Shown here: piece after piece, positions 214 through 19,411 of the stretch
Layout: the number at the start of each line of letters is the position of its first letter
How positions within the stretch are numbered: position 1 is the stretch's first letter
Source of the DNA: a virus
Length of the DNA: 20,940 nt
Virus record (IMG/VR): IMGVR_UViG_3300020415_000002
Coordinates: 1-20,940 of that record
Direction: 5' to 3' (one strand)
Position numbers and translations under genes: made by a program
Notes under the pieces: generated by a model
Told to the model about the DNA's origin: nothing
Seen by the model: only the letters and a program-made list of their open reading frames with translations
Database searches by the model: none

Positions 214-261
214 GATCCATCATCTCTCTCTCTCTCTTTTTGAGAGAGAGAGATGATGAGG
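207..261 (+). promoter_or_regulatory. Intergenic hairpin unit A (17-bp perfect stem)
   Basis: Bases 218-234 pair perfectly with 242-258 around a TCTTTTT loop (235-241). The inner stem is a CT/GA tract. The unit begins with CGCATGAGATCCA, which contains the stop codon of the upstream gene, and ends in AGG. It is matched by unit B at 749-803, of equal length, equal stem length and identical loop. No U tract follows the stem in either direction, so it is not a typical intrinsic terminator. An RNase III-type processing site or mRNA-stabilising element is more likely (inference). Confidence 0.85.
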
Positions 262-280
262 TAATGAAATCAGAAACCAA

Positions 281-295
281 TGCACGGGAGGTGCA
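281..295 (+). promoter_or_regulatory. Shine-Dalgarno hairpin of the gene at 299
   Basis: TGCAC (281-285) pairs with GTGCA (291-295), leaving the purine-rich Shine-Dalgarno GGGAG as a five-base loop. The stem ends three bases before the ATG at 299. The same architecture with a covarying stem occurs before the gene at 846. Confidence 0.7.
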
Positions 296-298
296 GAC

Positions 299-634
299 AT
301 GGCAACACTAATCAAAGATTCGTTGTACATAGGTGAGTCCCCTTGGGATGAGACTTGTGCACAGGTTGGTACAGACATGTACCGGGTGAACGCAGGCAAG
401 GAGTGTCGGCGGTTTATCGAACAGATCCGTAATCACTACGGGTCGGAGCCACAGGGTGCACGCTTGTACATCAAGTCGAACCCGCATGACTTCGGTAGTT
501 ACCTGTCGGTGGAGTGCGAGTTCATCTGGGATCCGTCCGAAGAGGACGAAGAGTACACGCCTTCACAGGAGTATGCCTTTGCGATTGAGGGCGATGACCT
601 GAAGGTCTTGCAGGCTTGGGATCCCAATGAGTGA
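299..634 (+). CDS. Conserved phage hypothetical protein, acidic
   Basis: A 111-residue acidic protein. The stretch GARLYIKSNPHDFGSY followed by a beta-like segment (LSVECEFIW) resembles hypothetical proteins I recall from other uncultivated phages. I know no function for them. The start is supported by GGGAGG eight bases upstream, displayed in a hairpin loop. There is no signal peptide or membrane segment. The C-terminal third is rich in Glu and Asp. Its end overlaps the next gene by eight bases (ATGAGTGA), implying coupled translation. Confidence 0.75.
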   Translation: MATLIKDSLYIGESPWDETCAQVGTDMYRVNAGKECRRFIEQIRNHYGSEPQGARLYIKSNPHDFGSYLSVECEFIWDPSEEDEEYTPSQEYAFAIEGDDLKVLQAWDPNE

Positions 635-755
635 CCCGAAGCAGGCACCCGACTGGGTGCATGAGGACTTCGATGAGTGGTCAGAACTCACGAAGGAACG
701 TGACGCATACAGGGCAGACGCTGAGGCCGAACGGCATCGGAACCCTTACGCATGA
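627..755 (+). CDS. 42-residue charged hypothetical protein
   Basis: The ATG at 627 lies within the end of the previous gene (ATGAGTGA overlap), so it is probably translated by reinitiation. It encodes 42 residues, begins MSDPKQAPDW and is mostly charged and helical (ELTKERDAYRADAEAERHR). The stop at 753-755 is part of hairpin unit B, just as the stop of the first gene is part of unit A. No family is recognised. Support comes from the overlap, the continuous coding-like composition and the shared gene-end cassette. Confidence 0.6.
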   Translation: MSDPKQAPDWVHEDFDEWSELTKERDAYRADAEAERHRNPYA

Positions 756-803
756 GATCCACCCTTTCTCTCTCTCTCTTTTTGAGAGAGAGAAAGGGTG
801 AGG
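749..803 (+). promoter_or_regulatory. Intergenic hairpin unit B (17-bp perfect stem, covaries with unit A)
   Basis: Bases 760-776 pair with 784-800 around TCTTTTT (777-783). Compared with unit A, stem pairs 3, 5 and 7 from the base change from T-A, A-T and C-G to C-G, C-G and T-A. Both partners changed each time, so pairing is preserved. The leading CGCATGAGATCCA, which includes the stop codon, and the trailing AGG are identical. A small inverted repeat, GGCCA/TGGCC, follows at 803-814. Confidence 0.85.
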
Positions 804-826
804 CCAACTGGCCGAACCAAACCATA

Positions 827-841
827 CACACGGGAGGTGTG
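827..841 (+). promoter_or_regulatory. Shine-Dalgarno hairpin of the gene at 846
   Basis: CACAC (827-831) pairs with GTGTG (837-841), with GGGAG as the loop. The stem ends four bases before the ATG at 846. Compared with the hairpin at 281-295, the two outer pairs differ on both strands, so the structure rather than the sequence is retained. Confidence 0.7.
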
Positions 842-845
842 AGCA

Positions 846-1298
846 ATGAGCCATGAAGTAACGGTAAACGAGTTCAGCGTAGACGTTGAGTTGGATTATG
901 CGGAGATACTGGCGAACATTGAAGACAGTATCTATGAACGGGTAACGGATCAGATCAACGAGGATGCGTGGGGTGCCGTTGAGTATCAGGTTGACGAGTT
1001 CGTGGCGGAGGCCATCGACAGTCAGGATTCCAGCGGGATAAGTGAGGCTCTGGATGAGGGCATCGCTTCGCTGCTCCTTGATTACATCCGCATCAAGGAG
1101 CGTGGTGGAGAGTCTTGCGGAACTGGCGAGCAGTTTGAGAAGGCAGTCAGGTACGCCGCCGAGCGTGGGGTGGTTGATGAAGCCCTACAGGTTCAGAAGC
1201 GTTTAGCCGATCTGGAGCGCAAGGTCAGCACGATCTTGGATGCCTTGTTCGTGCTAGGTGAGCGAGCCTCATCGGTAGATGACCGTAATGCTGGCTGA
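846..1298 (+). CDS. Acidic hypothetical protein with C-terminal coiled coil
   Basis: 150 residues. The start ATG follows a loop-displayed GGGAGG. The N-terminal two thirds are acidic and mixed helix/strand. Residues about 110-145 (DEALQVQKRLADLERKVSTIL and on) look like a coiled coil, so the protein may form oligomers. There are no catalytic motifs and no membrane segment. It lies in the early-type cluster of small genes, and its end overlaps the start of a small membrane protein. I do not recognise a family. Confidence 0.75.
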   Translation: MSHEVTVNEFSVDVELDYAEILANIEDSIYERVTDQINEDAWGAVEYQVDEFVAEAIDSQDSSGISEALDEGIASLLLDYIRIKERGGESCGTGEQFEKAVRYAAERGVVDEALQVQKRLADLERKVSTILDALFVLGERASSVDDRNAG

Positions 1299-1512
1299 CC
1301 AATCCGCCATCGTGTGGACCGACTGGTTCGGGACCGCACCTTGGTTCATTGCCGGGGTGGTTGCGACCGTCGCGGTCATGGAGATAGTTCAGCGCAGACG
1401 TAGGCGCAGAACGAAATCCTACCGTGACTGGTTGCAGGCACTCCGGTCTGTCACATCCGAAAGAGATAATACAAACACAGGAGGAAATGTGCATGAGAAG
1501 CACAACAGATAA
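1288..1512 (+). CDS. Small single-pass membrane protein
   Basis: I take the ATG at 1288 (74 residues). The in-frame ATG at 1279 is an alternative. Both overlap the end of the preceding gene, and neither has a strong Shine-Dalgarno. One hydrophobic segment (PWFIAGVVATVAVMEIV) is followed by a block of six arginines. By the positive-inside rule the N-terminus would be outside and the basic tail in the cytoplasm. The tail is polar and the last 20 bases overlap the start of the DUF932-like gene. Function unknown. A membrane role in early takeover or exclusion is only a guess. Confidence 0.5.
   Translation: MLADQSAIVWTDWFGTAPWFIAGVVATVAVMEIVQRRRRRRTKSYRDWLQALRSVTSERDNTNTGGNVHEKHNR
1476..1491 (+). 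promoter_or_regulatory. Shine-Dalgarno hairpin of the DUF932-like gene
   Basis: CACA (1476-1479) pairs with TGTG (1488-1491), placing GGAGGAAA entirely in the loop. One base separates the stem from the ATG at 1493. This also decides the start: the in-frame ATG at 1424 lacks a comparable site and lies inside the preceding gene. Confidence 0.6.
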
Positions 1513-2584
1513 CACAAGCGGACATGAGAACAACTGGATTCAGCGGTTGCGGGAACAGATTGAACCACACGCACAGGCTGTAGTCGATGCGATGATTCCC
1601 GTTCCACGAGAGGATGATTCGGGGATCGTTGACTTCCGTGTTGATGACACGGTGGGCTTCGTGAGTGACAGCGTGCGAGGCATGGCAAACCTGACAGGTG
1701 CCGACTTCGACGTTGACTACGCCCCATCAGGGTATGTCCATCCGGTCACGGGTGAGCATGTCATCCCGACCTACCAGTCGGGTACTTATCGGGGAGAACC
1801 CAGCGACCAGTACATTCTGCGTAGTGATACGCATGGTGTAGTCGGCAACATGAGCGGGCGTTACCCAACCCGTGATGGATACAAGCATGTCCTAGACACG
1901 CTTGATTCGATGTTCCCGAACTCTTGCGAAAGCATCAGTGTCTACGGCAATGGTGAGCGGGTGGTAGTTGAGCAGGTGCTTGACAAGCCGTTCGACCTTG
2001 GCGGGGGTGACCTGATTCAGCCGTACATTTACACTCGTATGTCGTTGAACGGGACGTGGAAGACGGAGATCATTCCGATCACCCGTCGAATCTCCTGCGA
2101 GAACATGCTTGGGCATTCCGGTCAGTTGATCGGTGTGCGTGCCACGAAGAATCACGACCAGTTGCTGACCATGAAGGCCAGCGTGGTGGAGATGTCGATG
2201 GCTCAGGGGCAGGCATTGAAGCAGATGGCTCAGACCTTGCAGGATCAGGAGTTCACAGACTTCATGTTCATGCAGATGCTGGAGCAACTGTTGCCGGTAC
2301 CTGAACCTGATGCTCATCACAAGACGATGGGTGCTTGGGTGAGTAAGCGGGCTGCCTGCAATGCGAGTTGGCGTGATGAGATTGCCAACTATGCGGACTC
2401 CACGATGTGGAACGCATACAACGCTATGCAAGCAGCGGAGCAGCACCGGATCAACACCGGGTTCAAGACAACTGAGAAGGCACAGCAGCGATCACTTACG
2501 AAGGCGTTGGATGGGAAGACGCCGATTGCTGATGCTGCGGAACAGTACCTGATGAGTCTCGTCCTAGCGGAAGAGCCTTTCTAG
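1493..2584 (+). CDS. DUF932-like phage/plasmid protein
   Basis: 363 residues from the ATG preceded by GGAGG. The central region fits the DUF932 (phage/plasmid-like, TIGR03299-type) family: a strand-rich part with PYIYTRMSLNG, then ITRRISCENML at about 197-206, which corresponds to the family's conserved Arg-x-Cys-x-Asn segment. A helical C-terminal half follows, with the W-x2-YNAMQ-type motif near residue 310. The family is widespread on phages and plasmids and usually lies near early or replication genes. Its biochemical function is not established. No membrane segment or signal peptide is seen. A structured non-coding stretch follows it, suggesting the end of a transcript segment. Confidence 0.75.
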   Translation: MRSTTDNTSGHENNWIQRLREQIEPHAQAVVDAMIPVPREDDSGIVDFRVDDTVGFVSDSVRGMANLTGADFDVDYAPSGYVHPVTGEHVIPTYQSGTYRGEPSDQYILRSDTHGVVGNMSGRYPTRDGYKHVLDTLDSMFPNSCESISVYGNGERVVVEQVLDKPFDLGGGDLIQPYIYTRMSLNGTWKTEIIPITRRISCENMLGHSGQLIGVRATKNHDQLLTMKASVVEMSMAQGQALKQMAQTLQDQEFTDFMFMQMLEQLLPVPEPDAHHKTMGAWVSKRAACNASWRDEIANYADSTMWNAYNAMQAAEQHRINTGFKTTEKAQQRSLTKALDGKTPIADAAEQYLMSLVLAEEPF

Positions 2585-2747
2585 TACATAGGATGGGGAG
2601 GACAGGCGACCGGTTGCCCTCCCACTCCGGTTGCCCGCAGGGGTGCGTCTGCGTAAACAACGCACGCTAACTAAACATTCGCGTATGGGGCGGGGAACAG
2701 GACAGGAGCGTTAGCGCGTTCCGGCAGTCCCCGTCCCATGCGTTCTA
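2585..2747 (+). promoter_or_regulatory. Structured intergenic region with a long hairpin
   Basis: About 160 bases without a convincing gene but with several inverted repeats. GGGAGG pairs with CCTCCC around the near-palindrome GGCGACCGGTTGCC. TGCGT (2650-2654) pairs with ACGCA (2660-2664). A long stem, 2682-2696 with 2728-2742, has 15 pairs including two G-U and encloses an inner GGAGCG/CGTTCC hairpin. No long U tract follows. This could be a transcript end, a structured leader for the gene at 2766 or a small non-coding RNA. I cannot tell which. No convincing -10/-35 promoter pair was identified. Confidence 0.55.
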
Positions 2748-2763
2748 CGTCATGGAGGTGACG
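2748..2763 (+). promoter_or_regulatory. Shine-Dalgarno hairpin of the gene at 2766
   Basis: CGTCA (2748-2752) pairs with TGACG (2759-2763) and the loop is TGGAGG. The stem ends two bases before the ATG at 2766. It repeats the architecture seen before the genes at 299, 846 and 1493, with an unrelated stem sequence. Confidence 0.65.
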
Positions 2764-2765
2764 CT

Positions 2766-3170
2766 ATGTGGGTATTTACAACTCACGGTTTTTATTCGGT
2801 TGTCTGCACATCGGACGATCATTCAGTAGTGCTTATACGGACACGCGATAGTGGATCGTTGGAGAAACTCATCGACTTCCTCAACGTTTCGGTCCAAGTG
2901 GGCGAAGAGCACGATCATCGTTACACAAACGAGAACATTATCGTGACCCCGTATCGGGACTACCCGTATCGGATTGCAGCGTTGCGTACTGACTGGGCTA
3001 AGTACCTAGAGCAGTATGCCTATGAGGGGTTGACGTACCCGAACTTTAAGAGTGCGTGTGGCAAGGCCGGGATGGATGTTGCTCAACTCCGTGCCTTGGG
3101 GGATGTGTGGCAGACCATGTATTACGATTGGGCACCGCGACCTGACATGGTGGACAACTCATGGCTATGA
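2766..3170 (+). CDS. Conserved hypothetical protein (MWVFTTHGFYSVV type)
   Basis: 134 residues. The N-terminus, MWVFTTHGFYSVV, and the later YEGLTYPNFKSA match a small-protein type I recall from many bacteria and phages. Those proteins start with a short strand-rich domain, carry arginine-rich regulated contacts and end near a YPNFKS/VW motif. No function is known to me. The start is decided by GGAGG in a hairpin loop. The end overlaps the HNH gene by ten bases (ATGGCTATGA), so the two are probably translated together. Confidence 0.7.
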   Translation: MWVFTTHGFYSVVCTSDDHSVVLIRTRDSGSLEKLIDFLNVSVQVGEEHDHRYTNENIIVTPYRDYPYRIAALRTDWAKYLEQYAYEGLTYPNFKSACGKAGMDVAQLRALGDVWQTMYYDWAPRPDMVDNSWL

Positions 3171-3922
3171 AACCGTCACCGGACAGGTGCCTGCTCTGCG
3201 ACGGCCCGTGGACCGGCGCCCAGCCGCACGGATACCGTGGGCTTCACCGCCGTTGCTACATGCGGATGAGGGACGCCGGTCGTCTTGACGAGTTCCCAAT
3301 ACTCCGATACCGCTTACCCACCCGGCCTCCGGTGGTGAAGGAGGAAGTCCCCTGCCTGACGCCGGGTTGTGGCGGCACGGTGATGCGATGGTCAAACCGG
3401 ATGAACAAGACATACCGGTGCAACGACTGCAAATCCTGTCACCGACTCACGGGGGGCTATGACCCTCGTCTGCGACGCGGTTACGATGTCCGGCTCCCAG
3501 ATAAGGAACGGGTCGCCTACTGGCTGGACCCAACCAACGTCAAGATGTTCCGAGGCGTTCCAACCCCGTTCGTGAAGCCCGGAGGCCCAGAAGGTGATTG
3601 TCTCGTCTGGCAGCGCGCCATGACCGGCAACCTCCAACAGACCAAATCAGGCAGCGTCTATCCGCAGGTTCATTGGTACGGACGACAGCAGCGTGTCCAC
3701 CGCATCGTCTACTCAGTCCTCAATGACCACCCGTTGGACGAACTCCTCGTTGTAGACCATCGGTGTGAGATCAAACAGTGCATCAACCCGGCTCATCTCG
3801 GAGCCGAAACCCTCGCCAGCAACACCGCCGGACGCATCAGAACGATGAGGCACGACCGCTTATGGAACGATCCTGAGGCGTTAAGAAAGCGCATACAAGA
3901 ACTAGAGGAAGACGCAGCATGA
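3161..3922 (+). CDS. HNH endonuclease with two N-terminal zinc-binding modules
   Basis: 253 residues. C10-x2-C13 with H29-x2-C32 forms a small zinc finger of a kind seen in actinophage HNH proteins. C65, C70, C87 and C90 form a zinc ribbon. The catalytic HNH_3-type core is at about 178-220: VHRIVY, then D199-H200, C202, C207, N209-P and H212-L. H200, N209 and H212 are the expected ββα-metal residues. Such free-standing enzymes are often homing endonucleases that nick or cut DNA at an allele lacking them, though some act in packaging. The position among early genes favours the homing type. Starts at 3161 or 3167 are both possible. The end overlaps the next gene by ATGA. Confidence 0.88.
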   Translation: MAMKPSPDRCLLCDGPWTGAQPHGYRGLHRRCYMRMRDAGRLDEFPILRYRLPTRPPVVKEEVPCLTPGCGGTVMRWSNRMNKTYRCNDCKSCHRLTGGYDPRLRRGYDVRLPDKERVAYWLDPTNVKMFRGVPTPFVKPGGPEGDCLVWQRAMTGNLQQTKSGSVYPQVHWYGRQQRVHRIVYSVLNDHPLDELLVVDHRCEIKQCINPAHLGAETLASNTAGRIRTMRHDRLWNDPEALRKRIQELEEDAA

Positions 3923-4068
3923 GGAAAACAAAGCAAACTGTTCTGCCTGCTGATGGAGCCAAGATCACACCAGCCATGTTGGATTCCAAAGCAGACCTTA
4001 AGGCGTTGATTGATGACAGTGAACGGTGGACGAAGGAAGCGTTACTCGCAGAAGAAGGAGCAGGATGA
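3919..4068 (+). CDS. 49-residue hypothetical protein
   Basis: The ATG overlaps the HNH stop (ATGA), indicating translational coupling. It encodes 49 residues beginning MRKTKQTVLPADG, with a basic N-terminus and an acidic helical C-terminus (ALLAEEGAG). The stop overlaps the start of the next small gene in the same ATGA manner. No family is recognised. Support is from the two overlaps and the absence of any competing gene. Confidence 0.6.
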   Translation: MRKTKQTVLPADGAKITPAMLDSKADLKALIDDSERWTKEALLAEEGAG

Positions 4069-4230: not shown

Positions 4231-4282
4231 GGTACTTAGTACAACCCCTCCCCCCTTTAGGGGGAGAGGGGTTGGTACTTAG
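4231..4282 (+). terminator. GC-rich intergenic hairpin flanked by GGTACTTAG direct repeats
   Basis: Bases 4242-4255 pair with 4261-4274 with a single C/A mismatch around a TTTAG loop. The stem is C-rich on the left and G-rich on the right. GGTACTTAG occurs on both sides (4231-4239 and 4274-4282). No U tract follows, so a factor-independent terminator is only one option. It separates the small early genes from the replication operon and may end, attenuate or process that transcript. Confidence 0.55.
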
Positions 4283-4300
4283 GACGCTAAAGGGAGGCCA

Positions 4301-5101
4301 ATGCAGAAATATCCGCTACACAGAGATGCCGAAGGGCGATGGATCCATACGTGGGTTCGACAGTCATCCATCAAGACTTCAGATATGTGTCTGGAACGAT
4401 GGCGTAACGATGTCTTCGGACTTGTAAGCGAAAGCATTAAGGATGCTTCATCGCTGGGGACCGTATGCCACGCCGTCGCTGAAGATGCGTTGAACTCACG
4501 CTTGGATGGCATCGCAGAGATGTCCCTTCAGGACATGAACGATGCGTTTGAAGACTATTGGGAAGAGACAGTCCCAACCATTCAGGTGTGGAACAACTAC
4601 AACCCTGAGACTGCGTATGCGGCGGGGCTGGAGAAGTTAGCCAACTGGCATGGGGAAGTGTTCCCGCAGGTACAACCCCTGATGGTTGAACACACCTTCG
4701 ATGTGCCGCTGATCGAAGACAGCGAACGTGTTGTCCGCATGACAGGCACTATCGACCTCGTGGAAGAGGACCGGCTGTGGGATTGGAAGTTTCCCGGTCG
4801 TGATTACAGCAGGGATGCTTGGCAGTATGAACGCTGGGATGTGCAATCCATTGCGTACTGCTATGCGATGGGCATCCCAAACTTTTCATATGCAGTCATG
4901 CACCCGAAGGGTGTAGGCCGCATGGATCTAGTGCGTGACCAGTCGCACTTCGACTGGTTGCGTATAAAGGTGTTGGCACTCTGCCGACTGTTGGAAACCC
5001 AGACGGGTCCATTCCCGTTGGGCGATAACGGTTGGTGGTGTTCTAATAAATGGTGCGAAAATTTCGCACGGTGTAAAGGTGCAACATTAGGAGGCACTTG
5101 A
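4301..5101 (+). CDS. Cas4/RecB-type PD-(D/E)XK nuclease with likely Fe-S cluster
   Basis: 266 residues, with GGGAGG four bases before the ATG. Motifs of the PDDEXK_1 (RecB/Cas4/AddB nuclease) family run in order: GTVCHAVAE with H57, VEHTFDV with E130, TGTIDLV with D152, then D161-W-K163, and Q182-x3-Y186. C30 near the N-terminus plus C247, C252 and C258 at the C-terminus match the one-plus-three cysteine pattern that holds a 4Fe-4S cluster in Cas4 and AddB. Phage members act as 5'-3' exonucleases in recombination or end processing. It heads the replication block. Its last codons contain a 7-bp inverted repeat (5053-5069). Confidence 0.85.
   Translation: MQKYPLHRDAEGRWIHTWVRQSSIKTSDMCLERWRNDVFGLVSESIKDASSLGTVCHAVAEDALNSRLDGIAEMSLQDMNDAFEDYWEETVPTIQVWNNYNPETAYAAGLEKLANWHGEVFPQVQPLMVEHTFDVPLIEDSERVVRMTGTIDLVEEDRLWDWKFPGRDYSRDAWQYERWDVQSIAYCYAMGIPNFSYAVMHPKGVGRMDLVRDQSHFDWLRIKVLALCRLLETQTGPFPLGDNGWWCSNKWCENFARCKGATLGGT
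5077..5099 (+). promoter_or_regulatory. Probable Shine-Dalgarno hairpin of the gene at 5103
   Basis: Bases 5077-5082 can pair with 5094-5099 (six pairs, one G-U) around an 11-base loop containing most of AGGAGG. The stem ends three bases before the ATG. It is weaker than the four hairpins upstream because the last G of the ribosome site is paired. Confidence 0.4.
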
Positions 5102-8743: not shown

Positions 8744-9101
8744 GTATTCCTTCGACCCGATAGCGTTAGTTTCTCTTTCTCAGCGTTACGGAAGCCAAGG
8801 CCGATTACCTGCAACACCGATGGAGGCGTTGCAACAAGCCGGTCCTGATGAACCGCTTACGTCTAAAGACGAGCAGGTTGAACTCCAAGAAATAGTGTTA
8901 AACGCACTAAATCATTTGGAAGATTGGGAACAATGGCTTCTTAACGCGCTGCTTTTTGAGAAGATGAGCCTGCGTCAAGTTGAGTTTGTATTAGGAATGC
9001 CGAAGACAACCGTTGCAAGAAAACGCGACATTGTGTTGGACAAATTGAAAACATATTTGGCAAATGAGCCAGTAATCAGGAGGTATTTGCATGGAGAATG
9101 A
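8730..9101 (+). CDS. Sigma-70 region 4-like HTH protein
   Basis: 123 residues. Residues about 62-110 (LEDWEQWLLNALLFEKMSL, then RQVEFVLGMPKTTVARKRD) look like region 4 of sigma-70 factors, with the recognition helix at TTVARKRDIVLDKLK. Region 2, needed to bind the -10 element, is absent, so it is not a full sigma factor. It may be a DNA-binding regulator, or it may bind the RNA polymerase flap in place of host sigma region 4. The DNA around 8880-9070 looks richer in A and T than its neighbours by eye. It overlaps the genes on both sides. Confidence 0.7.
   Translation: MARREYSFDPIALVSLSQRYGSQGRLPATPMEALQQAGPDEPLTSKDEQVELQEIVLNALNHLEDWEQWLLNALLFEKMSLRQVEFVLGMPKTTVARKRDIVLDKLKTYLANEPVIRRYLHGE
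9060..9090 (+). promoter_or_regulatory. Possible Shine-Dalgarno hairpin of the Nmad1-like gene
   Basis: GCAAAT (9060-9065) is complementary to ATTTGC (9085-9090), which ends directly before the ATG at 9091. AGGAGGT lies in the 19-base loop. The stem is AU-rich and the loop long, so this is the weakest member of the series. Confidence 0.35.
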
Positions 9102-10878: not shown

Positions 10879-13800
10879 CTACAAATGCGACCTTCTCAAC
10901 GCCCGCTCTTGCGCCCGCTCTTCCCGCAGGTCATAGCCGCGAGAACGCATCTCCTGCTGCTGCTCCCACTTCGTGTTCGTTCGCAACCCGATACCAGCAA
11001 ACCAAGAAATCCAATTGCTTACAGCGCGCTGCTGATACTTCTCTTCATCAGGGAACAGCCGTCGGTAATCCGTGAACGTAGGCAGCAACTGTGCCATGCC
11101 ATGCAACGCATGGTCTGGCATCACCCACTCGTCCTCGTAATTCTTTGAAGCGATACCAAGCACCCGTAAACCCTGCATCAAACCGGGAATCATCGCATAC
11201 GCAGTCGGCACAGGCTCCGGGCGACCATCAAAACTGTAACCCTTCCAAAGATTCTGCTTCGCCTTCCACTCATAAGGCGCCTTAATGATCGGTGTCAACT
11301 GTGTACCAAAGGTTCCCAACGCAATCTCCGCACGCTCCATAATCCCAAGGTCTTTATCGAAAGCAAGCATGGGATCAAGCAGTTCAAGCGGAGCCTTGAA
11401 CGGCATGTCAGGCAAGATCATCATGTTCTCACCCTCGTACTTCCACGGCAAACGAATGGCACCCTGACGTTGCATCCAACGCGGGACGACACCCCCCTCA
11501 TCGTCTTCCGACATGAGTTCAACTTCCTTCTTCAAACTCACATAACGGTTGAACACCTCTGGCTGACGCGCGAATTGCTCCATCATCAAAGGCATGTTCT
11601 TACGAGTCCACGTATAGAACGGAACCACCCGCTTCACAACGTTTCGTTCAAAGTCCGACAGATCGTCGTAATCGAAATGGAACTTCATAATGTTGTCGAA
11701 CGCTTCGCTGGCGGTGCCGCCCTTCTTCAACGTGTCAAAGCCAAGCGACCCACGCAAGAAAGTCTCAGTCGCCATACCGAAATTCTTAGACAAACGCAAT
11801 GGAGCGTTGCGTGTATTCATCGGGTTGATGGCGTCAACTATGTTGACTTCCTTCCCTCCGATGCGGACGTTGGCGTTCGGCGCAAGACGACGAGCCAAGA
11901 TCCCACGACCAGAAGACTCCACAAACTCAGAAGCAACCTGACCAGAAGCAGAACCCAAACTGCCAGTCCGCGCCAACTCCCTAATAATCTCTACATCCGC
12001 ACGACTCACATTCTCTGGGTTAATCATCCGGCCACGCATCGCCTTACGCATCCGCGCAGCCTTCTTCGTCAACCCCGCAGTAACAGCCTCCTCCTCCTGA
12101 TACTTCCAATACGCACGCATGAACTTGCGATAACTGGACCAATCCATGCCAGCGAGATGATTCATAAACGCACCAGAGAGGAAGTTGCGCCCGTGGAAAC
12201 CCGGCTTCGCAATCATGTAAGCACGCAACAGATTGTGCAACTTGTCGTACTTGCTTAAGAACCCCGCAGCACCACCCCTAGCGGCAAACATTTCAGTCGC
12301 AAGCATCGACTCAACCAACGTGTCATTGCCCTGTAGGCGACCAAACTCTTTCATGCCCGAAAGGAAAATGTCTTCAATCATTTCCTCCGCTTGGGGCACC
12401 TTGTGAAGATCGCCCAATTTCTGTTCAGGCAACTTCGATATGAGATCAGTCCAGCCCTCAGCGCCGCGTTGGAACTCATCCAACGCAAGGTTCAGCATGG
12501 CGTTATCACCCTCAATGAGAGCGCCTACAGCCAACCGCAACTCAATCAAATCGTCCGGTAGATCCTCCAACGGTGTGTTCACCGGGGCACCCAAACGATC
12601 CAGCAGGTCCAGAGCCTCATCTATCTGACGCTGCTTCTCATCCATGCCGCTCTTAACGAGCCACCTTTCGGTGTCCGCCAGATCGGCAACCCATGAATCA
12701 GGTGGTGTTGAAAGTTCAATCGCTTCTCTGGCCGCCTTGAGTTCTATCTCAGAAAGTACCAGACCTTGAGTTTCCCTGTAAGTCTTAGCCGCTAGTTGCT
12801 GGTCTGCAACCAGCACGGCGCGACGTTCAACCAACTGTTGCAGAACATCCGGTAACGGCTGATTTCCTATGACCGTTTTGGGTGATGCGGATACTTCTTG
12901 GAACCATTCAAAGAATGCGGCTGGCTCAACAAATAAAGTCTCACCCTCTTTAGCCTGCGTGCTGGCAGTCAGCCGCGTGGTCGGATCAAGCGGATCGGCT
13001 CCACCCTGATCTTTCATCCACTGGGCTACTTCCATTTCGTATTGGTCAACGTCCCAATTATTGATGTACATATCTTCAAGGAAATCGTTGACATCATCAA
13101 CCGATGCTCCCTGATCGGTCATGTCTTGCGCCATGTCCTCCATCAGGGCGTCTGGATCCCAGAAAGGATGTGTCTTATCATTTTTGACAGTGGCCCACGG
13201 TGCCTTCGGCACCTCCACCGCATCATACGGAGTCGATATCATCGACTCCTGTTCGGCCAGATTCTTTGCGAGTTGTTCGTATTCGATTTCCAGATTGTCA
13301 CTCAACTTTGCGGTGAGGTCTGCTTCCGTTATGGCTTCCTTCGTTGGCACCAACTTTCCGTCCACGACCTCGTTGCCGGTCAAGCGGGAAATGTTGCGGT
13401 GCGTCATCGACACATCCATCGACCTCAGAGCCGCCGGGTTTGTAGCCATGAAATTGGGGAACTGCGTCCGACCAAAGGTGCTCAACCCGCCAGCCCCCGG
13501 AACGTTCACTGCGTCAGGGGAGTTAGGTCCACCGCTCACCCAATACGCAGCGGAATACCCATCGGCTGATAGCGAATTCTGAAACTCCTGATTGAACTGT
13601 GTCAGGTACCACCGACGCAGAGTTTCCTGTTTGCCTCCACCGCCGGTTCCCGGCCTTATCTGCTTGTGGCCTCCTCCGCGACCTGCCGTCGCCGGAGATT
13701 CCAACATCCCCTCCCAGCCAAAGGCACCTCTCGCCACCTCGCTCTCATCAGCGAAGTCCACCAGCCACGGGGTTACGATGTGCTCGCCCTCACCAGTGAA

Positions 13801-16800
13801 CGCAGCGTTTATGACCGCACCAAAGTTTATGTGGTCATTGATGGGCAGCCGCATGGCATCTATGGCGGGGTTGATATCCGGGTCATGGGTCCAAAGGTAA
13901 TGGGCGAACTCTTCTGACAGATCCCGTGGCGGGAGGTGCGGGATCCCTCCCACGGGATCAACCGCTATAGCGACAGTGTTTCTCTTCCGAAAAGCCCACA
14001 TCGCGAATTCGGTACGCTCCCTGTAAGAAGAATTGGCAATCTTCTCAACAACCAGAGAAGAATTCGCTGCTTCCGTAGTCCAATTGCTGATGTCAGTAGG
14101 TACGCGGACATCCCCTAGTTCATCTGCATACCGGAGTGCTTCCAATACTTGCACCACCTCGTCGCTCACGGAGTCGCCCCTTGCGGCCCACGCCTCCATG
14201 ACCTGACGTACCTGTCGTACCAACTGCGGGTTCGATTCAAAGACACGAGAGAACTGATCCAAATAGAAATCACCTTGTGCGTTGCCAGCACCCCCGCTGT
14301 TCTGCCAAACACCGCTCCGTCCACCACCCCCATGCAGAGCATCGGCCACAAGTTTCCCAACCTCATCGGGGCTACTGGCCTGCGAAATATCAATAGCCAC
14401 CTGAGCCGCAACAGCCTCACTTGCCCCATGAGCAAGCCCATAAACCTTGATGCTGTTTGCACCCTCAGGCAAATCCAGCAACAAATTGTACCCATACTGC
14501 GTTCCAGACGCCTTGTAATACATATTGCCCGGAGTCGAATTCAAAAATGTTGTATCAAACCACCCGTGCCCCCTATTCCCGTATGAAGAAGTCAACGATA
14601 AGGGTGGATCATTGGATGTGAAATGAAACAAGTTCATCGTTGTTCCAGCCTCAGCAGCCCGTTCAATAACTTCCCGCGAGAAACCGCGCTGAGCCAACGC
14701 CGCCTTCACCATGTCCGGGCTATCCGCCGCGATAAACGGCAGACTGAATTGGTCAGCCAAAACCTCCAACCGCTTCTCAAGGAAATCCACAAACGGTTGC
14801 AGATCATCCTGCGCCTCCAACGGGGTAGGCATCATCCGGCGAACCCACGCCTCCATCCCCCCCGCCTGTAAGCGCATATCCAAAATCTGTTCCACTTGAT
14901 TCGCCATCGTTGCAACAAAGTCTTCTTCAGCCACACCAGCATTCGCTAAAGGCGCATACCACGCATTCTGGGCTGGATCCAACATCCCACCCTCACGACT
15001 GATGTCAGACATCGCTTCAGGAACCCAACCCAGATCACTCTTCGCGCCACCCTGAGCGCGATGAAAGAACGACGAACCCTGATCTATGCGAACCAAACCA
15101 TCGAAAGCACTAACACCAATATTGTCAAACCCCGTACCGACAACATCCCAATTAGCCAACAGTATGTCGGCTGCCATCCCGCGCGTAAGAGCGCTGGCAA
15201 CCGACTCTGTTACCTCGCCCGGACGAACACCATCAGGACCAATCAGGCGTTTGATTCCGGTAGTCGGGTCAACCGCTATCAAAGCCGTGCGTGGGTCCAA
15301 GCCAGATTCTGCAACAGTTTCAATACCCTCTATCCACGGCGAAATGTGCCACAGCGAACCATCCGCATGACGTGACGCATACGAATCGGGGGCACCAATG
15401 TTCAACTCCCGGTACAAAGCGTTACCCAAGACTTCGCCCGTGATCCGATCCCTCCCAGTACCCGGAGGCATCGGATCACCACCAGCAGTCATATCGTCGT
15501 AGCGTTTAGCGTAATACTTTCTTCCGTTGTACTCAAAGGAACCGCCTTCGTTGCTGCCCAACCTCCCGGTTACCGGTTCCCCAGAAAGAATGTCTTCAAT
15601 GCCGGGTCGCTTGTTGGCGATAGGCGAACTCATCGTTGAACGATAAAGTTCCATCGCCCTGTACTGGTGTTCCAACTGCACATAATCAGCAACAGTCAAC
15701 ATGCGTTCCGTGCCATCGTCACTGACAACCCGCAAACGGACTGGCTGCCCTGCTGCTTCAGCAGCCTCTTGGATGTATACCAAGTTTTTGTTGATTCCGT
15801 CAACGCTGTCTTCCAACGTGGAACGGATCTGCTTCAACAGGCCATCAAGGTCAGCCCCACCCTCAATCAACTGCGACGCAGGCAGACTTGATCCCGCATA
15901 ATAGGTTTGCAACGCCTCACGAACTGCCGGGTCACTCATCACGGCAGCGTCAGAAATGGCACCATCAGTCGCATCTAGGATCACCTGCTGTGCTGCCACC
16001 ACCTCATCAGGTGTGGGCAGCACACCCCCACCATTAGGTGCAAGAATCTCAGGCGCCACCTCGGCGTATTCGTTGATGACGCCAGTCATCTCGTCAATGT
16101 CTTTACGCATCCGGGTTAAAGCGAAATCAATCTTTGCTGCATCGTTTGCCAAGTGGTCCAAAACATTCAACTCGGCTTCAACACCAACCCACAGGCCAAT
16201 GCCATCCCGATCCGTCTGCCCTAGAACCTCATTGAGATCCATAAACAGTTTTTCCATCTCAAGAGGCTTGCCCTCAGGGGTTTGGAAAGCCCACTTGCCC
16301 GTAGGTAGTTCGACAATAGAATCTGGCAGATTCCCCGCGTCCGCCATTTCTCTCAGGCTCGCATCAATGTCGCTTACATTCATGCCACGCAACAAATCGT
16401 TGCTGATGAACGCTTCAAACGCTTCAGGTGTACCAAAAATCCTGCTAATAGATCGCTCAAGTTTCATAACCTGAACGGTGCCTGAAGTCAAAGTGTCATA
16501 TGCGAACCGCAACGTCGGAGCGTCATTGACAACCCCAGCCAAAGCGCCATTCAAACGAATACGCTGCTTCTCAAGTTCCACCAGTCGGGGACCAGCAGGG
16601 GTGGTAGCAATCTCTGCTTCCAACTGCGACAACTCATCGCTGACCTTGCGCATCTCCATGCGATTCGCTGCGAAACGATCCGATGCTTCCACATGCCGTT
16701 GCAGAAGATCGTCTTGATGAACATTCAAGCGGTCAAGTTCATCACTCTTCTGCTTAATGATCTGCTTTAACTTGTCCTGCTGCTGACGGTTCCTCGCCAA

Positions 16801-19407
16801 ATTGATAGCAGGATCAGCCTCATCCCGAATCGCATTCTGCAAATCAGCGGTCGCCCGAAGCAACCCATCACGGGCCTTCTGAATGTCACGCGCCGTCTTC
16901 ACCGCAGCAGCATCCGGCAACTTCACATATTGGGCAATCGTGGACTGCAACACCCCCTCGTTGAACAAGAGGTTCTCGCTGAAAACTTCACCCGCTCTGT
17001 GCGAAACCTGATTGATGTACCCATCCAAGGCAACCTGTAGGTCATCCGTGAACAGCATGTAGTCGGCACCAGAAGCGACAAGGATGTCAGCGATCTGGTC
17101 CTCAACAGAACCTGCGAGTATTTCCTGACCGGTCTTAGGATCAATAGTGCCTGTCGGAGTCTTTGGTTCTAATAGTTCCGTTCCCCAGAAATCAGTCTGG
17201 ATGGAATCGAAAGCGCCGTCACCATCACCAGAGCGAACAAATGCCTCCGCATTTTTCTTCGATACCGAAGGATTCTTTTTCTGGTAATCCACCACGCGGC
17301 GCTCAAAGTCTTGCTTCGTGATGTATTTACGCCCGATTTCTGAACCTTTCGGTTCAGCCATGTTGTTTCGGAAACGAGGGGTGTTGCGCCCCCTGTTGAC
17401 CAAAGCCTGTCTCACCTTGTCGCGCGCCTCACCAGTCAACGTACGCGGCACATGGTTATCGACCCGACCCAAGAACCCGCCATCACGACCGCTGGTCGTG
17501 TTGGCGAGATCCCTCAAGTCATCCATCATCCCCCGGCCACCATCAAGCAGACCCGGAGCAACAGCCTCAATCGCATCTATCTCGGCTTGGCTCCCACCCA
17601 AAGCGCTATAAACAGTTTTTCTAGACACCGCAGGATTGTTCGTAGCGGCAGCATCCACTTCGTCTATATAGGCGCGTACACGAGCCGACATCTGAACCTT
17701 GAGACTGCGGCCCACATTCTTGCCACGAGACAGAGCGTGAATGACACGCTTTCCCTGCTGGATTAGAACGCCGTCATCAGATTCTCTGATGACGGCTTTC
17801 AAGTCGGCCAACTTGCCCGACATCTTGCCTTCCTTACCGAAAGGTTTCCCAGCCAAACGGAACAAACCGCCACGCCTGAGAGCCTTCGGGATGGTCTTGG
17901 CACCGGCAGCCTTCGCTGCCTGAGCCAAGATGCCATTACGAATACCCTGCGGGATACCTGTAACCATCTTGCCAATGATGGGCGCTTCAGAACTAAGCAG
18001 CCTCAAGCCGTGCGGAGAGTCAAGTCCCTTCCCGAAAACCTTCCGGCTGAGATCATCTATCCTCGTGGAGATCCCCAGTTTTCTACCGATAGGCCCAGTT
18101 CCCGGCACCTTCAAACCGAAACCCAACTTCATGTTCGCTGCATCTTCAGGTGACAGCCAGCCAATGTTGCGGCGCTGCGATGGCGTAGCGTAAGTATTGC
18201 GACTACTCAACCGCGCCTTGTAGGCGTCCGCATCCACGACCTGACGGCCAGCCCATTTTTTAATTGTGGTTTCGACGGATTCGTCCAACCCGGATTCCGC
18301 TACCTGCTCACGAATACCTTTGCCCAATTCGTCAAAGAATTCGTCTGCGCCATGACGCATGTTTCTGTCCAGACCACTGTCGGCCATCATCTTGGCAGCG
18401 AACCGGAGATCATCTCCGGCAACAGCAGTAGCCCCCTTCTGCTGTGCCTTCCCGATCAGATCCCCCAACCGTTCCAAATCGTTTACTTCCGCATTGGAAA
18501 GAATGATCTTCTGCGCGGGAACACCGTCGCCTGCCCTGACAGACAACTCCCAACCCTTATCGCCAAGATCCACCAAGCCGCTCTTAACGGTGCCCTTCTT
18601 GCCTCCGGCAGCAGCACCTTGTGCAAGGTCATCGGCCAAAGCGTGCCAATCACCCTGCTTCATGCTCTTCCCAATAGTGGTCATGGCGTCCCCGCCAAGA
18701 TCACGCAACCTATTCATTACAGTCTTGCGGGCCACCTCACGGGTGATGTTTCCCGCAGCCTTCGTAGTGAGTTTCGCCCCGAAACCAATCCCCTTACCAA
18801 CCAACCCCAAATAGGAAAGCGGATCGAAAAGAACATCACCAGTAAACCCAATAGCGGCAGCAGCAAACTTCTGCCACCCACTATCACGATCCTGCAACAA
18901 ATCGTAGTCATGCAGCAATCGACCATACGTGTAGTTGTCGTTGTACTGCTGTTTGAAGTCACTCCAACTGGCGTCTTCGCCAGTGAATACGTCAATCGTT
19001 TCCTTCAAAGCAGACGTAGTGAAAGACAAAGGCTTCTGAATAGCGTTAAGGAAGCCGCCTACAGGCCCTGAAGTCAGAGTCTTCATGTACCACGGAGCGG
19101 TATTAGCGATATGGGATTGTGCGGCCCAACGCTGTGTTGACTCCGAAACGGGCCGTCCCACCACACCGGGGGTGACACGCCCCAATGCGCTCTGGTCTAC
19201 ATTGAGGATGTTGGCAAGGCGCTCACGCGGCGTGCCGATACCTGAAGACTGGAGGGGAGCCGGTGACGTATCCGGTGCGGCAGCGACCGTCGGTCGCATA
19301 GCAACCGTGGGTCGTATGATCTTCTGCTTGGGAAGATTGCTGGTGTCTGTTACTCCAGCAAGAGCATCGTATGCGACTCGTCGGGATTCGGGGTTGGTGG
19401 TAACCAC
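10879..19407 (-). CDS. Giant multidomain phage protein, likely internal virion/ejection protein
   Basis: 2842 residues from a GTG at 19407, four bases after the upstream stop. The frame is open to a TTG at 19515 but would overlap the upstream gene. Layout (residues from this GTG): hydrophobic segment about 176-212 (FTGDVLFDPLSYLGLVG); coiled coil about 830-955; kinase-like domain about 1273-1520; ADP-ribosyltransferase-like segment about 1588-1660; second coiled coil about 2180-2275; C-terminal domain from about 2390 with PFYTWTRKNMPLMM near 2594. That last motif recurs in very large phage proteins thought to be packed in the capsid and ejected with DNA. No protease site or signal peptide is obvious. 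Gene size and position favour a virion role; the enzymatic roles are inference. Confidence 0.8.
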   Translation of the reverse strand: MVTTNPESRRVAYDALAGVTDTSNLPKQKIIRPTVAMRPTVAAAPDTSPAPLQSSGIGTPRERLANILNVDQSALGRVTPGVVGRPVSESTQRWAAQSHIANTAPWYMKTLTSGPVGGFLNAIQKPLSFTTSALKETIDVFTGEDASWSDFKQQYNDNYTYGRLLHDYDLLQDRDSGWQKFAAAAIGFTGDVLFDPLSYLGLVGKGIGFGAKLTTKAAGNITREVARKTVMNRLRDLGGDAMTTIGKSMKQGDWHALADDLAQGAAAGGKKGTVKSGLVDLGDKGWELSVRAGDGVPAQKIILSNAEVNDLERLGDLIGKAQQKGATAVAGDDLRFAAKMMADSGLDRNMRHGADEFFDELGKGIREQVAESGLDESVETTIKKWAGRQVVDADAYKARLSSRNTYATPSQRRNIGWLSPEDAANMKLGFGLKVPGTGPIGRKLGISTRIDDLSRKVFGKGLDSPHGLRLLSSEAPIIGKMVTGIPQGIRNGILAQAAKAAGAKTIPKALRRGGLFRLAGKPFGKEGKMSGKLADLKAVIRESDDGVLIQQGKRVIHALSRGKNVGRSLKVQMSARVRAYIDEVDAAATNNPAVSRKTVYSALGGSQAEIDAIEAVAPGLLDGGRGMMDDLRDLANTTSGRDGGFLGRVDNHVPRTLTGEARDKVRQALVNRGRNTPRFRNNMAEPKGSEIGRKYITKQDFERRVVDYQKKNPSVSKKNAEAFVRSGDGDGAFDSIQTDFWGTELLEPKTPTGTIDPKTGQEILAGSVEDQIADILVASGADYMLFTDDLQVALDGYINQVSHRAGEVFSENLLFNEGVLQSTIAQYVKLPDAAAVKTARDIQKARDGLLRATADLQNAIRDEADPAINLARNRQQQDKLKQIIKQKSDELDRLNVHQDDLLQRHVEASDRFAANRMEMRKVSDELSQLEAEIATTPAGPRLVELEKQRIRLNGALAGVVNDAPTLRFAYDTLTSGTVQVMKLERSISRIFGTPEAFEAFISNDLLRGMNVSDIDASLREMADAGNLPDSIVELPTGKWAFQTPEGKPLEMEKLFMDLNEVLGQTDRDGIGLWVGVEAELNVLDHLANDAAKIDFALTRMRKDIDEMTGVINEYAEVAPEILAPNGGGVLPTPDEVVAAQQVILDATDGAISDAAVMSDPAVREALQTYYAGSSLPASQLIEGGADLDGLLKQIRSTLEDSVDGINKNLVYIQEAAEAAGQPVRLRVVSDDGTERMLTVADYVQLEHQYRAMELYRSTMSSPIANKRPGIEDILSGEPVTGRLGSNEGGSFEYNGRKYYAKRYDDMTAGGDPMPPGTGRDRITGEVLGNALYRELNIGAPDSYASRHADGSLWHISPWIEGIETVAESGLDPRTALIAVDPTTGIKRLIGPDGVRPGEVTESVASALTRGMAADILLANWDVVGTGFDNIGVSAFDGLVRIDQGSSFFHRAQGGAKSDLGWVPEAMSDISREGGMLDPAQNAWYAPLANAGVAEEDFVATMANQVEQILDMRLQAGGMEAWVRRMMPTPLEAQDDLQPFVDFLEKRLEVLADQFSLPFIAADSPDMVKAALAQRGFSREVIERAAEAGTTMNLFHFTSNDPPLSLTSSYGNRGHGWFDTTFLNSTPGNMYYKASGTQYGYNLLLDLPEGANSIKVYGLAHGASEAVAAQVAIDISQASSPDEVGKLVADALHGGGGRSGVWQNSGGAGNAQGDFYLDQFSRVFESNPQLVRQVRQVMEAWAARGDSVSDEVVQVLEALRYADELGDVRVPTDISNWTTEAANSSLVVEKIANSSYRERTEFAMWAFRKRNTVAIAVDPVGGIPHLPPRDLSEEFAHYLWTHDPDINPAIDAMRLPINDHINFGAVINAAFTGEGEHIVTPWLVDFADESEVARGAFGWEGMLESPATAGRGGGHKQIRPGTGGGGKQETLRRWYLTQFNQEFQNSLSADGYSAAYWVSGGPNSPDAVNVPGAGGLSTFGRTQFPNFMATNPAALRSMDVSMTHRNISRLTGNEVVDGKLVPTKEAITEADLTAKLSDNLEIEYEQLAKNLAEQESMISTPYDAVEVPKAPWATVKNDKTHPFWDPDALMEDMAQDMTDQGASVDDVNDFLEDMYINNWDVDQYEMEVAQWMKDQGGADPLDPTTRLTASTQAKEGETLFVEPAAFFEWFQEVSASPKTVIGNQPLPDVLQQLVERRAVLVADQQLAAKTYRETQGLVLSEIELKAAREAIELSTPPDSWVADLADTERWLVKSGMDEKQRQIDEALDLLDRLGAPVNTPLEDLPDDLIELRLAVGALIEGDNAMLNLALDEFQRGAEGWTDLISKLPEQKLGDLHKVPQAEEMIEDIFLSGMKEFGRLQGNDTLVESMLATEMFAARGGAAGFLSKYDKLHNLLRAYMIAKPGFHGRNFLSGAFMNHLAGMDWSSYRKFMRAYWKYQEEEAVTAGLTKKAARMRKAMRGRMINPENVSRADVEIIRELARTGSLGSASGQVASEFVESSGRGILARRLAPNANVRIGGKEVNIVDAINPMNTRNAPLRLSKNFGMATETFLRGSLGFDTLKKGGTASEAFDNIMKFHFDYDDLSDFERNVVKRVVPFYTWTRKNMPLMMEQFARQPEVFNRYVSLKKEVELMSEDDEGGVVPRWMQRQGAIRLPWKYEGENMMILPDMPFKAPLELLDPMLAFDKDLGIMERAEIALGTFGTQLTPIIKAPYEWKAKQNLWKGYSFDGRPEPVPTAYAMIPGLMQGLRVLGIASKNYEDEWVMPDHALHGMAQLLPTFTDYRRLFPDEEKYQQRAVSNWISWFAGIGLRTNTKWEQQQEMRSRGYDLREERAQERALRRSHL
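14850..15590 (-). other. Kinase-like domain inside the giant protein
   Basis: GGSFEYNGRKYYAKRY supplies a nucleotide-binding strand with K1301 (numbered from the GTG at 19407). LGNALYREL is the expected helix after it, and SPWIEG a hinge-like strand. ADILLANWDVVG then gives catalytic-type D1421, DNIG gives N1429, and VRIDQGSSF gives metal-binding-type D1442. This order matches HipA and phosphatidylinositol-kinase-like folds, although the spacing from D to N is eight rather than five. It may phosphorylate a host protein on entry. That is inference. Confidence 0.55.
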
Positions 19408-19411
19408 ATTA

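Follow-up and report, generated by a model that had tools for sequence, protein, structure and literature searches.

The closest described counterparts of the elements reported here are the start-associated sequences (SAS) and extended start-associated sequences (ESAS) of the Cluster K (PMC3203893) and EF (PMC7302621) actinophages, which occur serially, at start codons, and in front of non-structural genes only. The 13-bp SAS consensus is GGGATAGGAGCCC in Cluster K and GGGAAAGGACCCC in Cluster EF. The role of the SAS has been called ill-defined since 2011 and was still described so in 2024-2025 (PMC3203893, PMC11373665, PMC12699233). The inverted repeats of the ESAS have by now been tied to putative promoters (PMC11373665), and the authors who described the SAS found little support for ESAS as RNA hairpins (PMC3203893). 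We analyzed the 20,940-bp IMG/VR virus record IMGVR_UViG_3300020415_000002 (the window, meaning this whole stretch), in which a first-pass annotation had noted Shine-Dalgarno (SD) sequences displayed in the loops of short hairpins just before the start codons of plus-strand genes. Comparison with relatives leaves us in little doubt that these structures are selected RNA hairpins showing the SD.

Sequence reading and folding agree on the four plus-strand SD hairpins listed by the annotation (Table 1), and each is the minimum-energy fold of its own 25-26-nt surroundings. When the flanks were shuffled and the SD kept fixed, the hairpins gave the individual P values listed in the table, and the window as a whole, with all 10 SD starts, gave a Fisher P of 0.008. 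Taken alone, the evidence of the window is modest and only suggestive. Two looser forms had also been proposed. The one at 5077-5099 stands as a hairpin with an 11-nt loop within the end of the upstream reading frame, and it is described below with its orthologues; the one at 9060-9090 was rejected as an SD hairpin (flank-shuffle P = 0.49, with no conserved stem in relatives).

Table 1 Hairpins and early genes of the window (positions in the 20,940-bp record; MFE, minimum free energy; P, flank-shuffle test; z, z-score)
Feature	Positions	Strand	Sequence or match	Energy (kcal/mol)	P or z
SD hairpin, gene 299	281..295	+	TGCAC-GGGAG-GTGCA	MFE -6.8	P = 0.008
SD hairpin, gene 846	827..841	+	CACAC-GGGAG-GTGTG	MFE -6.4	P = 0.009
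SD hairpin, DUF932 gene 1493	1476..1491	+	CACA-GGAGGAAA-TGTG	MFE -3.2	P = 0.051
SD hairpin, gene 2766	2748..2763	+	CGTCA-TGGAGG-TGACG	MFE -7.1	P = 0.027
Looser SD hairpin before start 5103	5079..5097	+	GTGC-AACATTAGGAG-GCAC		
Long leader hairpin, gene 299	218..258	+	17-bp perfect arms, apex CTCTCTTTTTGAG	-33	z = -5.0
Long leader hairpin, gene 846	760..800	+	17-bp perfect arms, apex as in 218-258	-32.9	z = -6.1
Long hairpin just 5' of the 2766 SD hairpin	2681..2743	+	GCGTATGGGGCGGGGA...TCCCCGTCCCATGCG	-42	z = -6.3
Long hairpin upstream of nuclease gene 4301	4242..4274	+	flanked by GGTACTTAGTAC and GGTACTTAGGAC		
Early gene, two-hairpin leader	299..634	+	no PHROGs or Pfam match		
Early gene, two-hairpin leader	846..1298	+	no PHROGs or Pfam match		
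DUF932 / phrog_1221 gene, SD hairpin in front	1493..2584	+	PHROGs/Pfam match		
Early gene, SD hairpin in front	2766..3170	+	unknown function		

The DnaB-like helicase of the window has many relatives in viral contigs, at 70-98% identity, and scans with four early proteins added more, leaving 88 contigs, all of them partial, after removal of duplicates. The family consists of uncultured phages that appear to be marine. Helicase relatives were absent from GTDB genome contigs in two scans made for host assignment, and the only match among phage records was a distant one, MW202803 (29% identity), a genome that has hardly any GGAGG starts and shows no clear excess of hairpins. Open reading frames (ORFs) were called by a simple automatic procedure that prefers starts with an SD and is blind to hairpins. 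Near-identical upstream regions were merged at 75% identity, which leaves related leaders still not fully independent. For the family counts, an SD hairpin was defined as at least 4 Watson-Crick pairs closing a loop that contains the GGAG or SD.

By this definition hairpins stand at 91 of the 298 non-redundant SD starts, compared to 23.9 in shuffles, and at 73 of 140 GGAGG sites, compared to 13.2. At the non-redundant GGAG starts of the early, plus-strand arm, 77 of 181 carry a hairpin. Exchanging the 3' flanks between genes, a control that preserves natural sequence, reduced this number to 17.0 (maximum 27 in 100 permutations), and exchange within the same contig gave 16.0 against 54/123. Controls of the kind that the annotation had called for, with flanks shuffled or exchanged around a fixed SD, therefore yield far fewer hairpins than the native sequences. 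A blind scan of every GGAG, with stems of at least 5 pairs, placed 27.0% of the sites before plus-strand ORFs in such a loop, in contrast to 4.8% elsewhere on the plus strand and 6.0% (3/50) before minus-strand ORFs. No excess was detected in T7, T4 (first 40 kb), D29, P-SSP7 and MW202803 together (4/68 vs 5.8, plus strand), and the excess was not significant in 80 P-SSP7-like contigs (10/68 vs 5.6, permutation maximum 12) or in Cluster K (12/70 vs 6.8, permutation maximum 13). A holdout of nine later contigs (L124-L132) gave 3/17 vs 1.2, which is not significant in so small a sample.

The hairpins are confined to one arm of the genome. We refer to the replication-side plus-strand arm as early, judged from its gene content, not from measured timing; the minus-strand arm carries the virion and lysis genes. 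Hairpins were found at 80 of 200 plus-strand GGAG starts and at 0 of 33 on the minus strand (Fisher P = 4e-7), and the late arms fetched from six larger records again had none (0/28 GGAG starts, ORFs of at least 100 aa), which bears out the remark in the annotation that minus-strand starts do not show the pattern. Among the newly fetched early genes of one relative, L247, a hairpin precedes 3 of 5 GGAGG starts, and a fourth start has 3 Watson-Crick pairs. Sorted by intergenic gap, early starts have hairpins in 24/80 cases at gaps of up to 10 nt, in 19/40 at 41-120 nt and in 29/53 above 120 nt. A natural contrast to the early leaders is provided by a late gene leader, AGGAGCGCATAC-ATG, which is conserved without a hairpin on the minus strand (L055 948, L059 1048, L071 728, L102 486).

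Within the hairpins, pairing is kept and the stem sequence is free. The 77 early hairpins use 41 different 5' 4-mers in stems of 4-8 bp, with a family mean stem energy of -3.3 kcal/mol, and their 3' arm usually coincides with the GU that follows GGAG in an extended SD. Loops are mostly 5-7 nt long (modal length 6 nt), closed by C-G (43), A-U (18) or U-A (10) pairs. The loop register is broad, with a 5' gap of 0-3 nt; GGA is unpaired in every case, on changing stems, and the G after it either ends the loop or is paired. The spacing from GGAG to the start codon clusters at 5-10 nt, and in 67 of 77 cases 0-4 nt separate the end of the stem from the start codon, which itself stays outside the stem.

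When the upstream regions of orthologous starts were aligned, the stems differed and yet stayed complementary. Hairpins were present in 4/4 distinct orthologues of the 299 start (3 different stems), 5/7 of the 846 start (4 stems), 10/11 of the 1493 start (9 stems) and 19/22 distinct orthologues of the 2766 start (8 stems, at protein identities down to 27%). The complementarity flanking the SD, on whose persistence in relatives the annotation had made its reading depend, is thus generally kept, with exceptions at start 4301 in most relatives, at 3 of the 22 orthologues of 2766 and at 846 in contig L018. Start 4301 has no SD hairpin in the window, and one subclade has GTCAC-GGGAG-GTGAC there. 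As the annotation had described, the stems are unrelated or covary, with two compensatory pairs distinguishing the 827-841 hairpin from that at 281-295. In pooled leaders that were not chosen for pairing, both sides changed in 21 cells, compared to 11.5 after shuffling (0/500 as high); GGGAG-loop leaders, some of them hand-picked, gave 13 vs 5.2 (0/500). Before start 5103, the hairpin is found in 27 of 32 orthologues; 98% of cells are paired (0/500 shuffles as high), and 6 of the 16 distinct relatives have C-G in place of a U-A pair. The 5' arm of this hairpin lies in the upstream gene, where a synonymous GGT/GGC exchange goes together with A/G in the opposite arm. Together, the varied stems at orthologous starts, the covariation and the matched synonymous change speak for selection on RNA structure. 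The computed evidence shows that selection maintains the complementarity, that it operates in the RNA, and that it is peculiar to the early arm.

Many SD hairpins are accompanied by a second, longer hairpin that the annotation had overlooked. These long hairpins have 9-20 bp, lie ~25-50 nt upstream of the start, and are present at 34 of the 50 SD-hairpin starts whose gap is 45 nt or more, compared to 0.4 in shuffles. Their arms are free in sequence. Between the two 17-bp leader hairpins of the window, at 218-258 and 760-800, the outer arm changes on both sides from CATCATC/GATGATG to CACCCTT/AAGGGTG, and relatives have hairpins with different arms in the place of 2681-2743. The apex, in contrast, is conserved and asymmetric, of the GAACGAAGTGA, CTCTTGTTTGA or CTCTTTTTGAG type, and occurs on the early strand only: GAAC[AGT][AT]AGTGA was found in 22 distinct cases, all on the early strand, CTCNNNTWTGA in 15 and CTCT[C/T]TTTTGAG in 14, including both leader hairpins of the window. 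Of the GGAG starts preceded by an apex hairpin, 20/23 have an SD hairpin, compared to 58/174 of those not so preceded (P = 1e-6). With and without a long hairpin of any kind upstream, the counts are 42/66 and 36/131 (P = 1.4e-6), and even the 36/131 at starts lacking a long hairpin exceed the 11.1 expected. This coupling indicates that many of the genes, though not all, have a two-hairpin leader as their unit. In the window, the long hairpins are not followed by a T run, and therefore they are not classic intrinsic terminators. No sigma-70-like promoter was found near the leaders on the plus strand, with fewer than expected overall, and known RNA families gave no match near gathering thresholds. 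The conserved apex suggests a possible binding site of some RNA- or DNA-binding factor. Further long apex hairpins, with arms of 10-20 bp, were observed at L044 500, L018 98, L095 2970 and other places. At window positions 4231-4285, the direct repeats GGTACTTAGTAC and GGTACTTAGGAC surround the long hairpin before the PD-(D/E)XK nuclease gene; relatives have ACTAAGTAC-like copies at the corresponding place.

With about as much doubt as confidence, we favor a model in which the SD hairpin presents its site to the 30S subunit, acting in cis. The loop would hold GGA(G) unpaired as a landing site for the anti-SD of 16S rRNA, and the weak stem would keep other leader RNA from capturing the SD, then melt as the 30S subunit lengthens its pairing and arrives at the start codon. 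The role of the long hairpin would be to set the 5' structure or to label the unit as a transcript leader. Folding predictions are in line with such presentation, which the annotation had listed among its options. Across all early GGAG starts, the predicted unpaired fraction of GGAG falls from 0.575 with native 5' flanks to 0.451 when the flanks are foreign (P = 2e-10), and therefore the native flank keeps the site open. At hairpin starts only, the values are 0.74 vs 0.49, a comparison that is partly circular for a set selected by its hairpins, and the predicted openness of the start codon is unaffected. The broad loop register is as expected if only the openness of GGA matters.

Several observations weigh against presentation in cis. 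The late genes, with the highest protein need, have no hairpin, which a general aid to translation does not explain. The context of the hairpin genes is not more occluding: with foreign flanks their sites are 0.51 open, compared to 0.40 in other genes, so that a further suggestion of the annotation, resistance to structure elsewhere in the mRNA, is unsupported. Upstream anti-SD-like stretches are not significantly commoner at hairpin genes, and the stem takes up part of the extended SD by pairing, a possible brake on initiation. The idea that hairpins are matched to an occluding context or to upstream anti-SD-like sequence was accordingly dropped, neither version being supported.

The main rival, a serious one that we consider possible without thinking it probable, is that a trans-acting regulator encoded by the phage or the host recognizes the hairpins by GGA or GGAG in a loop on any stem and regulates early mRNAs or turns them off; candidates would be a CsrA/RsmA-like repressor or a RegB-like endoribonuclease. 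CsrA ligands (PMC7652899) and RegB substrates (PMC3014915) both involve unpaired GGA, and the CsrA ligands obtained by systematic evolution of ligands by exponential enrichment (SELEX) are short hairpins with up to 4 contiguous pairs, in which GGA usually sits in a 6-nt loop closed by AC/GU (PMC7652899). A regulator of this kind would account for the confinement of the hairpins to the early arm, for a GGA that is constantly open on variable stems with its following G loop-terminal or paired, and for the modal 6-nt loop with C-G and then A-U as the commonest closing pairs. In CsrA/RsmA targets, too, a short weak hairpin located at the SD or close to it has GGA in its loop, and several genes are served by one code with free stems. 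However, only 19 of the 77 hairpins have, two bases before GGA, the A that never varies in the SELEX ligands and is conserved in ACARGGA; none of the 77 has the ACARGGAU core, and the loop register is not fixed. No CsrA homologue was found in 20 phage records, which are possibly incomplete. The T4 RegB sites resemble those described here in that GGAG occurs in early, not late, SD sites and the structure around it matters (PMC3014915). They differ in that secondary structure is generally protective in T4, and the A-rich 3' part of the RegB consensus GGAGRAYARAA is poorly matched here (mean 3.0 of 7 matches 3' of GGAG). A RegB homologue (PF10715, E ≤ 1) was likewise missing from 25 phage records, again possibly incomplete. 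CsrA and RegB targets may be regarded as functional analogues of the early hairpins. A related and tentative idea, which we rate as rather unlikely, is a regulon defined by shape only: the two-hairpin leader would be the mark of early mRNAs, and its apex and GGA loop would be read by a dedicated factor of the phage or host, which would switch genes on or off whatever the stem sequence.

A much weaker alternative takes the sites for sequence motifs of the SAS/ESAS type, or for DNA palindromes bound by a DNA-binding protein, and regards RNA pairing as incidental. The serial layout before non-structural genes with a frequent upstream inverted repeat, as in the SAS/ESAS (PMC3203893), and the association of ESAS repeats with putative promoters (PMC11373665) speak for it. 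Against it, the stems are unrelated while pairing persists, Cluster K conserves sequence and not pairing, and no match to the K consensus with up to 2 mismatches was found in the window or the family (the EF consensus was not searched). The covariation makes this reading disfavored, and we consider it very improbable. The converse possibility, that the Cluster K SAS are themselves RNA hairpins, was rejected: in 32 Cluster K sequences the outer triplets mostly change on one side (GGG..CCA 30, GGG..CAC 8, CCG..CCC 6). Compensated variants are few, CGG..CCG in Pixie and CCTG..CAGG at gene 39 of AnnaSerena. The latter gene (L123 5315-5360), listed with an ESAS but no SAS (PMC7302621), has CCTG-AAAGGAC-CAGG before its start, a SAS variant that preserves pairing. 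Finally, chance or a method artefact of extended SDs and composition, to which the window P of 0.008 and the non-significant holdout lend some color, has next to no probability; at the level of the whole family it is refuted by the excess in flank swaps, within-contig swaps and the blind scan, by the lack of a significant excess in the P-SSP7-like contigs and the five reference phages, and by the early-late contrast.

Two other regions of the window were noted. Neither the HNH endonuclease gene at 3161-3922 nor a small ORF at 3919-4068 has a counterpart in any relative by tblastn, with both neighbors conserved, and 3161-4068 looks like a homing-type insertion. The minus strand at 10879-19515 encodes a giant virion-arm protein of 2878 aa, with no Pfam match and a weak tail-fibre PHROG match near its C-terminus. 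The proposal that this protein is an N4-like virion RNA polymerase using hairpin promoters is not supported by these matches.

Among other known arrangements, engineered toehold switches carry the ribosome site in a hairpin loop and the start codon region in the stem, which keeps translation off. The loop-borne ribosome site is shared with the early hairpins, which differ in having the start codon outside the hairpin. Coat-protein operators are fixed hairpins for one protein, in contrast to the series of unrelated stems described here, and the operator of this type raised by the annotation is unlikely. The same holds for its other candidate, a RegA-type operator, because RegA sites are unstructured and A+U-rich (PMC3014915), the likeness of both to the early hairpins being that they are translational control sites at phage starts. 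The annotation knew of no described system with such a serial arrangement. The SAS/ESAS of Clusters K and EF do form a serial arrangement at the starts of non-structural genes, and they are conserved by sequence; serial hairpins with the SD in the loop were not found described in the open-access literature.

Of all these systems the Cluster K SAS/ESAS come closest. Like the early hairpins, the SAS are serial, contain the SD, lie directly before the starts of non-structural genes, often after a larger intergenic gap, and have an inverted repeat just upstream at many sites; their outer GGG...CCC could pair around the SD. The position within a few nt of the start (67/77) and the restriction to non-structural genes are found in the family as well. 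However, the Cluster K SAS is a near-invariant 13-mer, exact at 263 of 341 ATAGGAG sites and without consistent compensation, while here it is the pairing, not the sequence, that is conserved. Similarly, the ESAS are imperfect 17-bp inverted repeats of conserved sequence, in contrast to the perfect long hairpins of the family, whose arms are free and whose apex alone is conserved. The family lacks the sequence that defines the SAS, and what it has in common with them is the layout. Our results point to a shared, previously undescribed way of controlling translation for one class of phage genes. It would be a natural, repeated case of a ribosome site shown in a loop, with dozens of natural variants for measuring the effect of a hairpin loop on 30S landing, and a family that has a SAS-like layout with the pairing conserved makes the structural role of start-site elements directly testable.

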